A model generated the notes under the pieces. The model did no database searches, was not told the DNA's origin, and was given only the letters and a program-made list of their open reading frames with translations. The position numbers were made by a program, and so were the translations under genes. Source: a bacterium (lineage in GTDB: Bacteria > Zixibacteria > MSB-5A5 > WJJR01). Taken from it: a stretch of DNA of 45,858 nt. The stretch lies in contig DATMBC010000055.1 of assembly GCA_035559435.1 (NCBI GenBank), positions 1 to 45,858 of the forward strand, given 5' to 3'. Shown here one piece after another: positions 40,609 to 43,812 of this stretch (positions are counted from its first letter, which is position 1; every line of letters begins with the position of its first letter).

Positions 40609-41958
40609 GTGGCATCACCGAAAGCCGACCCCTTGATGGAAAAGATCGTCTCCCTCTGCAAGCGCAGGGGCTTTGTCTTCCAGTCCTCCGAAATCTACGG
40701 AGGCCTCAACTCCTGCTGGGATTTCGGCCCGCTGGGGGTCGAACTCAAACGCAACATCAAGGACCACTGGTGGAAGACGATGACCCATCGCCGCGATGAC
40801 ATCGAGGGGATCGATGCCGCCATCCTCATGCATCCGCAGGTCTGGGTCACCTCCGGCCATGTCGCCGGCTTCACCGATCCGCTGGTCGATTGCAAAGAGT
40901 GCAAGGCGCGCTTCCGGCTCGACCAGATCGACGAGGCCGAGTGCGGCAGCCCGGCCTACAAGGGGCGCAAGGCCGCCAAGTGCCACGCCGAGGGCAAGTT
41001 CACCGAGCCGCGCAACTTCAATCTGATGTTCAAGACCTTCATGGGGCCGGTCGAGGAGGAGGCCGCGGTCGTGTATCTGCGTCCCGAGACCGCGCAGGGC
41101 ATCTACGTCAACTTTCTCAACGTCATGGGCCCGATGCGCCGCAAACCGCCGTTCGGCATCGCGCAGATCGGCAAGGCCTTCCGGAATGAGATTTCGCCCG
41201 GAAACTTCATTTTCCGCTCGCGCGAGTTCGAGCAGATGGAAATGCAGTACTTCATCGACCCCAGGGACGACCAGAAGTGGTTTGAGTATTGGAAGGAAGA
41301 ACGGCTGAAATTCTACCTCGATCTCGGCATCCGCCGCGAGAAACTGCGCTTCCACCAGCATGGCCCCGGTGAACTGGCGCACTATGCCAAGGACGCCTAC
41401 GACATCGAATACGAGTTCCCCTTCGGCTGGAAGGAATTCGAGGGCATCCACAACCGCACCGACTTCGACCTCGGCCGTCACAAGGAGGCCTCGGGCGTTG
41501 ATCTGTCCTACTTCGACGAGGAAACCCGCGAGCGCTATATCCCCTACATCATCGAGACCTCGGCCGGCGCCGACCGCACCACGTTGGTCTGCCTCGTGGA
41601 CGGCTACAAGGAGGAAGAGGTGAAAGGGGAGAAGCGGGTGGTGATTTCTTTAGACCCTCGCATCGCGCCGATCAAGGCGGCGATCTTCCCGTTGGTCAAC
41701 CGCGACGGCATGCCCGAAATCGCCATGAGGATCACCGAGGACCTGCGCACGAAATTCAAGGTCTTCTACGACGACAAGGGCGCGGTCGGCCGCCGCTACC
41801 GCCGCATGGACGAGGTCGGCACCCCGTTCTGCGTCACCGTCGACTCCCAGACCCTCGAAGACCAGACCGTGACGATCCGGGATCGTGACTCGATGGAGCA
41901 GGAGCGCATCAGCATGGCGAGGCTGGTGGAATACTTGGAAGCACGGGCTCGCTGTTGA
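40609..41958 (+). CDS. glyS: Glycine--tRNA ligase, single-chain dimeric type
   Basis: Class II synthetase that charges tRNA-Gly; 449 residues, the alpha2 type also used by Gram-positives, archaea and eukaryotes, not the alpha2beta2 type of proteobacteria. Class II motifs: PRNFNLMFKT, YLRPETAQGIYVNF, AQIGKAFRNEISPGNFIFRSREFEQMEMQ and SAGADRTTLVCL. The C-terminal anticodon-binding domain starts at DPRIAPIKAAIFPL. The start is a GTG at 40609, with GGAGG at 40600-40604. The gene product is full length. Confidence 0.96.
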   Translation: MASPKADPLMEKIVSLCKRRGFVFQSSEIYGGLNSCWDFGPLGVELKRNIKDHWWKTMTHRRDDIEGIDAAILMHPQVWVTSGHVAGFTDPLVDCKECKARFRLDQIDEAECGSPAYKGRKAAKCHAEGKFTEPRNFNLMFKTFMGPVEEEAAVVYLRPETAQGIYVNFLNVMGPMRRKPPFGIAQIGKAFRNEISPGNFIFRSREFEQMEMQYFIDPRDDQKWFEYWKEERLKFYLDLGIRREKLRFHQHGPGELAHYAKDAYDIEYEFPFGWKEFEGIHNRTDFDLGRHKEASGVDLSYFDEETRERYIPYIIETSAGADRTTLVCLVDGYKEEEVKGEKRVVISLDPRIAPIKAAIFPLVNRDGMPEIAMRITEDLRTKFKVFYDDKGAVGRRYRRMDEVGTPFCVTVDSQTLEDQTVTIRDRDSMEQERISMARLVEYLEARARC

Positions 41959-42063: not shown

Positions 42064-42762
42064 GTGAACGGTATATTTTACTGTAGACGTGCGGCAAGGA
42101 GGAAAACCATAGAACTCAACTTCGCATCAGTGGTCTGTGTGGGGCGATTCAATCCCGCAATTCTTACGCCGCACTTCCTAAAGGACGTCTGCGGACTTCA
42201 AACTCCATTCGAACCAGAGGGACAAACCGCACCAGTAGCGTCTCAGATAAGTTTCGGAGAGTTACAGTTCTATGTCGATCTGACTAAATTTCAAATTCGT
42301 TTGGATCGCCCAAGGGACCTCCAACCTCCACCATTCCTCGAAGTGGGCGCGAGGTACTTAAAAGTACTGGGATATACGCCATTGGATCGAGTCGGATTGA
42401 ATGTGAACTTCAATGTCGATGTGGGCTCACCAGAGCAATTCAGTGTCCAATCAGCCATGCAGGAGTTCGGACGTCTCTCACCAAGTTTTCATACGCCAGT
42501 GCTATTCTCAGCTACAGTGGGATTCTTAAGCACGAGCAACGCAGTACTTGTCGAAAATGACCTTCGTTGGCAGTTGAATGACCACAAGAGTCTCAGACTC
42601 CAACTCAATCGGAAGCAGAGTACGAGGTTCGCCTGTAATTTAAATCTGGAGACCATCGGGTTGGATAAAGATAGATCAAGAATTGATGCGATCATTACGG
42701 ACTTTGTGCTCTTCTCAGAACTAGTTCCACTTGTTTCCACTCACTTGGAGGAAAGACGATGA
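42064..42762 (+). CDS. Orphan protein, first gene of the islet B cassette
   Basis: A 232-residue protein if read from the GTG at 42064; another GTG lies at 42028. Neither has a ribosome site. A perfect AAGGAGG at 42096-42102 instead points to an in-frame ATA at 42109, giving 217 residues from IELNFASVV. The protein is predicted alpha/beta with long strands (SFGELQFYVDLTKFQIRLD, LGYTPLDRVGLNVNFNVD) and no membrane segment. There is a faint resemblance to TIGR04255-type proteins, which I would not rely on. Base composition is more AT-rich than the neighbours. It overlaps the next gene by 4 bases (ATGA), so the cassette is translationally coupled. Confidence 0.65.
   Translation: MNGIFYCRRAARRKTIELNFASVVCVGRFNPAILTPHFLKDVCGLQTPFEPEGQTAPVASQISFGELQFYVDLTKFQIRLDRPRDLQPPPFLEVGARYLKVLGYTPLDRVGLNVNFNVDVGSPEQFSVQSAMQEFGRLSPSFHTPVLFSATVGFLSTSNAVLVENDLRWQLNDHKSLRLQLNRKQSTRFACNLNLETIGLDKDRSRIDAIITDFVLFSELVPLVSTHLEERR
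42096..42102 (+). promoter_or_regulatory. Perfect Shine-Dalgarno site before an ATA codon
   Basis: AAGGAGG, then a 6-base spacer, then ATA (42109-42111) in the frame of the 42064-42762 gene. Spacing and sequence are ideal. It implies either initiation at ATA, or an ATG-to-ATA change or sequencing error. Confidence 0.55.
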
Positions 42763-43349
42763 AGGACAGAATCCACACAAGTGAGACCACTCCTTCCACT
42801 CCGGATCGGCAGCGGGCCAGCCGAGTGCAAATTCACTCGCTTGGCTGGCATCCAGCCCTTAATTCGCGCAGTGTGATTGTCAGCACCTCTTCAGCGGGAC
42901 TGCGCTCGCCCGACTCAGAGCCTGGAATACTGGCGGCTTACAACGATGCGCTACAGGCGACCTCCTATGAGGACTTGTTTGACTTGTCTAGCCTCCGGAT
43001 CCACGACTCAATTGTGACGATGAGTGCAATCACGGCGGACCTGCAGCCAATTAGTCAAAGCCAAGAGCTGCCGGCCAGGGTGGCCGCTTATGTCGGGGTT
43101 CGTAGATTGTGGGGCGAGATAGCGCTTTCCAAGTCACTTGTGCGAAAACACTTTCAGAATGTGTGGAGTGAGCACTTCACGATGGAAGCAGATCCAGAAA
43201 GTGCCGAAGTCTGGATTCTGCATTCCTTTACGACAATGGGCGAAGTTACAGATGTCGCGCTCGCGCACAAAGAGTATAGTTCTGAATGGACACGCGAAGT
43301 ATCGTGGCCAAAGTGTGATTACATCCGCCTATCCTTTAATATTGTGTGA
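42759..43349 (+). CDS. Orphan protein, second gene of the islet B cassette
   Basis: A 196-residue soluble protein starting at ATG 42759, inside the stop of the previous gene, with GGAGGAAAGACG upstream as ribosome site. The N-terminal 60 residues are polar and Ser/Thr-rich. The rest is mixed alpha/beta (YEDLFDLSSLRIHDSIVTM, SAEVWILHSFTTMGEV). No family is recognised and no catalytic motif is clear. The stop overlaps a possible start of the HEPN-like gene. Codon use is AT-richer than the surrounding housekeeping genes. Confidence 0.65.
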   Translation: MKDRIHTSETTPSTPDRQRASRVQIHSLGWHPALNSRSVIVSTSSAGLRSPDSEPGILAAYNDALQATSYEDLFDLSSLRIHDSIVTMSAITADLQPISQSQELPARVAAYVGVRRLWGEIALSKSLVRKHFQNVWSEHFTMEADPESAEVWILHSFTTMGEVTDVALAHKEYSSEWTREVSWPKCDYIRLSFNIV

Positions 43350-43812
43350 GTCGAATCACTTGGAGCCAACCGAATTTCAGAAGCTAGGCGAGGACCTAGC
43401 GAAGAAACCTCTTCCTGCGGCGATAAGAAGCGCTGTCAGCAGAGGCTACTATGGGGCGTTTCATTCATGTTCGAGATTCCTGAATAGCATCAATATACCC
43501 GTCGTGGCGAATTCGGGAGCGCACGGCACAATCCGAAATCTACTCCACAACTGCGGGGACACGGAGTTACGCACAGCGGCGAAGCAGCTTGCGGACCTGC
43601 ACAGTGCGAGAATACGTGCCGACTACCGACTCGACGATGATCGAGCGGATGACGCAAAGACCGCCGCTGCGTTACTGATCACGTCGCGCGGGATCATAGA
43701 GTGCGCAGCTAGTTGCCACGACGAAAACCGGCGTCGTCGTGTATTCGCGGCGATCAATCGTTACCGCAAGAAGATTTCCTCTCAGAACCTCGATACCGGT
43801 ACAGATGCCTAG
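43342..43812 (+). CDS. HEPN-like protein, third gene of the islet B cassette
   Basis: About 156 residues. After a short lead comes a helical bundle with HEPN hallmarks: SAVSRGYYGAFHSCSRFL, GAHGTIRNLLHN, and ADLHSARIRADYRLDD, where the R-x-x-ADY element stands in the usual Rx4-6H helix. That His is not obvious, so ribonuclease activity is uncertain. HEPN proteins are common toxins or effectors in defence and toxin-antitoxin pairs. The start is unclear: TTG 43342 overlaps the previous stop and TTG 43360 is an alternative; neither has a good ribosome site. It ends 1 base from the convergent next gene. Confidence 0.68.
   Translation: MCESNHLEPTEFQKLGEDLAKKPLPAAIRSAVSRGYYGAFHSCSRFLNSINIPVVANSGAHGTIRNLLHNCGDTELRTAAKQLADLHSARIRADYRLDDDRADDAKTAAALLITSRGIIECAASCHDENRRRRVFAAINRYRKKISSQNLDTGTDA

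Follow-up and report, generated by a model that had tools for sequence, protein, structure and literature searches.

HEPN toxin modules are already known, and so, as a variant, is the type of HEPN protein that we describe here. In the HEPN-T proteins, typified by AF0298 (2hsb), an aspartate replaces the histidine of the motif, and another conserved histidine upstream could complete the site (Anantharaman et al., PMC3710099). The HEPN effector of retron-Kva2, a type IX retron, causes tRNA cleavage, and the substitutions H64A, R122A, and Y40-42A each abolish defence (PMC13405049, preprint). In HEPN-MNT (type VII) toxin-antitoxin systems, such as MntA-HepT, a HEPN protein is paired with a nucleotidyltransferase. 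TIGR04255, which turned out to be relevant to the locus, is a broadly but sporadically distributed protein family without an assigned function, and the open-access papers that we searched do not mention it by name.

We analysed a 45,858-nucleotide stretch of DNA from a member of the Zixibacteria (the window) and found a trio of genes, here ORF1, ORF2, and ORF3, that resembles the described HEPN systems in part. As in the HEPN-MNT systems, the genes form a tight operon and one product has a HEPN fold, and the HEPN of MntA-HepT (7bxo) was among the Foldseek matches of the ORF3 model. In contrast to those systems, no nucleotidyltransferase domain was found in ORF1 or ORF2 (no Pfam match, E<=1) and ORF3 lacks the RX4HXY motif. 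ORF3 is related to the HEPN of the type IX retron and has the same histidine and tyrosine positions in place of an RX4-6H motif, but searches of Pfam and NCBIfam found no reverse transcriptase or winged-helix protein in the trio.

A low-GC cassette behind glyS

The trio consists of tightly packed ORFs on the same strand (Table 1), located between two ordinary housekeeping genes, glyS, which ends at 41958, and a RibD-like reductase gene on the opposite strand (44380-43814). The upstream flank is recO, a small ORF, and glyS, and the downstream flank is the reductase gene and tag.

Table 1. Positions of the three genes and of the start and putative active-site features within them.
Feature	Position	Strand	Length or start	Description
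ORF1 (P0001)	42064..42762	+	232 aa from GTG 42064; 217 aa if ATA 42109 is the start	'FNPxIxxP' family; first gene; putative sensor/regulator
ORF2 (P0002)	42759..43349	+	196 aa	Middle gene; putative antitoxin to, or partner of, ORF3
ORF3 (P0003)	43360..43812	+	150 aa from TTG 43360; alternative TTG 43342	HEPN protein; predicted ribonuclease toxin/effector
Ribosome-binding site and start region, ORF1	42096..42111	+		Perfect AAGGAGG, 6-base spacer, in-frame ATA; homologues begin here
Y30-Y31 codons, ORF3	43447..43452	+		Align with Y41-Y42 of the retron-Kva2 HEPN (essential and RNA-positioning there)
H55 codon, ORF3	43522..43524	+		Putative alternative catalytic histidine; aligns with H64 of the retron-Kva2 HEPN (36ht_I)
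R84-I-R-A-D88-Y89 codons, ORF3	43609..43626	+		'R..[ACS]DY'-type motif in place of RX4-6H

The original prediction described the three genes as having overlapping ends, and this was accurate for the first junction, where ORF1 and ORF2 overlap by exactly four bases (ATGA). The junction between ORF2 and ORF3 is less certain, with two candidate TTG starts for ORF3. The in-frame TTG at 43342 overlaps the stop codon of ORF2, and only with this start would there be the stop/start overlap that had been described. Alignment of homologues favours the TTG at 43360, 10 bases past the stop. The true start of ORF1 may be the ATA at 42109, because of the ribosome-binding site in front of it and because the homologues begin there. 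The ATA itself is either a start codon or a lost ATG.

The cassette was acquired horizontally and recently, a conclusion that is well supported because its G+C content and GC3 are low and because it is absent from related genomes. The trio has a G+C content of 51.4%, compared to 63% for the window, and is the lowest of 883 equal-sized (1.75-kb) segments across it. The individual genes are at 47% (ORF1), 53% (ORF2), and 55% (ORF3), and their GC3 values of 48%, 57%, and 60%, respectively, are in marked contrast to the 80-86% of recO, glyS, the reductase gene, and tag. Six other genomes of the same family keep the recO-glyS order, and in none of these did a gene of the trio turn up near glyS. The contig ends within glyS in one of these (G002) and about 1.5 kb after it in another (G006), and for these two the genome-wide search carries the weight: it turned up no ORF1 in any other genome of the family. 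The exact trio was present in only one of the genomes searched here. Thus, the drop in G+C relative to the neighbouring genes that had been noticed is real. Both the G+C content and the composition at third codon positions differ from those of the neighbours, and the relatives lack the cassette, so that the first refuting condition set in the original prediction did not hold.

ORF3 and its putative active site

The assignment of ORF3 as a HEPN protein is well supported by homology and by its predicted fold. A direct search of Pfam with ORF3 gave no match. A profile HMM made from the HEPN proteins of six sister operons (see below) matched ORF3 with an E-value of 1.3e-14 among 1055 ORFs (hhalign, 97%), and ORF3 also matched HEPN_IX in PADLOC (3.6e-4) and the phage family phrog_5176 in PHROGs (E=3.9e-13). 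In a HEPN set that included relatives of ORF3 from two genomes (G111 and G015), two members passed the gathering score of PF05168. An AlphaFold2 model, for which the input was ORF3 and three prophage relatives, was all-helical with a mean pLDDT of 83.8. The first Foldseek match of this model was the Archaeoglobus HEPN protein AF_0298 (2hsb; probability 1.00, E 0.06, TM 0.55/0.64), and this E-value, the best obtained, is weak despite the high probability. The model folds as a HEPN protein, in agreement with the likeness that had been noticed in the sequence.

The canonical RX4-6H motif is absent from ORF3, and another set of residues is conserved (Table 1). Y30, H55, R84, D88, and Y89 are invariant across seven aligned HEPN proteins from operons, and these five residues and Y31 are invariant in an alignment with three prophage HEPN proteins. 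The profile of the operon HEPN proteins also matched the HEPN effector of retron-Kva2 (36ht_I, E 6e-5). R84 would be the natural counterpart of R122 in Kva2, a residue that lies outside the local alignment. Ribonuclease activity of ORF3 is predicted from the residues that align with those of Kva2, and the relationship to the type IX retron effector points to reuse of one ribonuclease behind different sensors.

HEPN proteins of the ORF3 type were found behind a partner gene on several mobile elements. These were a Vibrio phage (PQ189350.1, L072), in which the pair is beside a P2-like replication gene, a Klebsiella phage (MK416008.1, L073), the small Acinetobacter plasmid p5AsACE (NZ_CP015620.1, L075), in which the partner has TPR repeats, and a Mitsuaria plasmid and three IMG/VR contigs (L069-L071). 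They were also found behind MNT genes in four Zixibacteria genomes. In all of the phage, plasmid, IMG/VR, and MNT cases examined, the HEPN gene lies a short distance downstream of its partner gene. The Vibrio, Klebsiella, Acinetobacter, and IMG/VR pairs are like the trio in that a HEPN protein with a similar R..[AS]DY motif and histidine is directly behind its partner, but they have two genes, and the partner is larger (with TPR repeats in Acinetobacter) and unlike ORF2 in sequence. Searches of plasmids and phages with ORF3 itself by tblastn gave no match. The cargo pairs in L072, L073, and L075 are not annotated as HEPN.

The first two genes and a recurring three-gene layout

ORF1 and ORF2, which had been described as unrecognised, have no match in curated families. 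Neither gave a significant match in Pfam, NCBIfam, PADLOC, PHROGs, or PDB sequences, and no kinship of either with a known antitoxin or sensor could be detected. ORF1 is one of the four members that we found of a small family, as yet without a name, with the motif 'FNPxIxxP'. The only clear homologue among 132 genomes of the phylum is in G040 (33% identity, E 9e-21), with a distant one in G034 (locus L042, E 2e-4) and another on a viral contig (L045), and each of the three opens a tight operon. In G040 and G034 (L003/L042), the ORF1 relative is followed by a short gene and then by a 'CDL' protein. On the viral contig (L045, 4953-7279), it is followed by a 208-aa gene and then by a metallo-beta-lactamase (MBL)-fold-like protein. 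Searches of plasmids and phages with ORF1 by tblastn gave no match, and a scan of 85k species, done with just two short ORF1 patterns, returned only the relative that was already known. Weak matches to Csy3/Cas7f and to RavZ-like proteins in the family searches with ORF1 and ORF2 were dismissed as chance.

The nearest relatives of ORF3 in the Zixibacteria are the last genes of operons in which a TIGR04255 gene is followed by a middle gene of about 180 codons and then by the HEPN gene. Among the 129 genomes of the phylum that were searched, 16 encode TIGR04255 proteins, usually from the first of three genes, the third of which varies. The third gene encodes a HEPN protein in five Zixibacteria genomes (L017, L018, L019, L022, and L025) and on the Thermus brockianus plasmid pTB1 (L035), a PIN protein in one locus (L020; PF01850, E 1e-14), and a zeta toxin on a Vibrio plasmid (L038, E 3e-12). 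In two loci (L027 and L029), it is HicA-sized, and the one of these tested had no Pfam match. The commonest third gene encodes a protein with a 'QxCDL'-like motif (L021, L023, L024, L026, L028, L031, and L033), and similar third genes are in L037, L039, and the prophage contigs L055-L058. Two more third genes that looked HEPN-like by eye (L030 and L034) were not counted, as only that of L034 had a match to PF05168, and this was weak (E 0.0095) and below the cut-off. L020, L027, L029, and L038 illustrate the swapping of effectors behind one family of first gene. The unnamed 'QxCDL' family is also the one found behind the ORF1 relatives in L003 and L042, and the members tested had no Pfam match.

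The trio has the layout of the TIGR04255 operons that end in HEPN. In both there are three genes in the same order and on the same strand, mostly with overlapping or nearly overlapping ends, and a homologous HEPN protein is in the last position. They differ in that the first gene of the trio is not TIGR04255 by sequence and its middle gene is not demonstrably homologous. ORF1 had no match to TIGR04255 above the NCBIfam cut-off, and the search for TIGR04255 in its genome (G000) gave none either. When the four-member ORF1 family was compared with 24 TIGR04255 proteins by hhalign, the local score of 18.9 exceeded those of all 60 column shuffles (mean 11.3, maximum 15.5) but covered only 36 columns, with a probability of about 1%, and homology of ORF1 to TIGR04255 was not demonstrated. 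An AlphaFold2 model of ORF1 from two sequences was unusable (pLDDT 36).

ORF2 occupies the slot of the middle proteins of about 180 aa in these operons and shares with them a DPE tripeptide near the C-terminal end. The HMM of the middle proteins did not match ORF2 significantly (E=16 in 1055 ORFs), and with only the tripeptide and the slot in common, membership in that family was not demonstrated. There was also no demonstrable similarity of ORF2 to the C-terminal domain of the phage-type partner. A match in one genome (G022, E 1e-3) was rejected, as its frame has four stops, and a tblastn search of plasmids gave none. Because there was no significant profile match for either ORF1 or ORF2, the evidence is one of positional equivalence and not of homology. 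ORF1 and its relatives open operons that end in HEPN or 'CDL' proteins, and ORF1 therefore fills the slot of TIGR04255 in front of two of the same kinds of effector. The statement of the original prediction that the trio matches no known module is thus correct for the exact combination of genes, but the layout fits a recurrent one of TIGR04255, a middle gene, and an effector.

We tentatively suggest, as a possibility that we consider less likely than not, that the trio belongs with these operons to a modular class of three-gene conflict systems not yet described, where the sensor encoded first is exchangeable (TIGR04255 or 'FNPxIxxP') and is joined through a variable middle protein to exchangeable effectors, and that this class extends over Zixibacteria, Thermus, Proteobacteria, Bacteroidetes, and prophages. 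The effectors of such a class might, with similar reservation, comprise HEPN, PIN, zeta toxin, HicA-sized, 'QxCDL', and MBL-fold-like proteins. That TIGR04255 and a second unnamed family are repeatedly first in three-gene operons that end in HEPN, PIN, or zeta proteins gives TIGR04255 a testable role, in which it would supply the common sensor or antitoxin to a modular system, whether of toxin or of defence type. Neither the pairing of HEPN with a first gene of this unnamed family nor the modular connection with the TIGR04255 operons was found in the libraries or open-access papers searched.

Proposed function and alternatives

We favour, with a probability of roughly 0.55, the interpretation that the trio is a horizontally acquired toxin module of three components, with a HEPN ribonuclease as the toxin and a partner from a family that had no name, acting in toxin-antitoxin or abortive infection. 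ORF3 would be a ribonuclease of the HEPN-T type, with an aspartate for the motif histidine and H55 as the alternative histidine, and would act as a dimer that cleaves cellular RNA, probably tRNA, and stops growth. ORF2, co-translated immediately upstream, would keep ORF3 inactive in a complex. ORF1 would be the sensor or regulatory subunit that stabilises the ORF2-ORF3 complex or releases it on a trigger such as phage infection. That ORF3 has ribonuclease activity, which RNA it would target, that ORF2 neutralises it, that ORF1 acts as a sensor, and that the module has a role in defence are all things that we infer. The toxin-antitoxin or phage-defence function originally proposed is a reasonable reading in the same sense, because related HEPN proteins are mobile (on phages and plasmids and in MNT pairs) and because the layout recurs with PIN and zeta toxins in the last position.

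The same observations might also be explained by a module that serves only for stability and has no anti-phage role, with ORF3 as the toxin, ORF2 as the antitoxin, and ORF1 as an autoregulator or second antitoxin. That sister operons end in PIN and zeta toxins fits this explanation, as do the partner genes of the plasmid HEPN relatives and the MNT-HEPN pairs of the phylum, which have a similar R..[AG]DY motif. We nevertheless consider it rather unlikely: the same type of HEPN is a defence effector in a retron and is found in P2-like and other prophages, whose cargo is often directed against other phages, and simple toxin-antitoxin pairs do not usually come with a third gene.

Two further explanations, in one of which the HEPN protein is not toxic and in the other of which the cassette is decaying, seem to us quite improbable. 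The lack of a canonical RX4-6H motif could mean that ORF3 is a regulatory or nucleotide-binding protein with a housekeeping use in a variable locus, but an alternative set of His, Arg, and Tyr is conserved, the His and Tyr positions are essential in Kva2, the contexts of this HEPN type are mobile, and the cassette is missing from related genomes. Likewise, the in-frame ATA 6 bases behind AAGGAGG could be what is left of an ATG, in which case ORF1 would be poorly made and the module would be degraded, partly dead, or kept only for ORF2 and ORF3. Against such decay, all three frames are open over their full length and have lengths like those of their homologues, the in-frame GTG 45 bases upstream of the ATA can serve as a start, and the putative catalytic residues of ORF3 are intact.

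No defence-island genes were demonstrated near the trio. The small ORF between recO and glyS (P0004, 39998-40522, about 174 aa) is a second low-GC (51%) insert. It had no Pfam match and was not found near recO-glyS in the six relatives, and its sequence 'KEIDLLAID' presumably recalls the PD-(D/E)xK nucleases.
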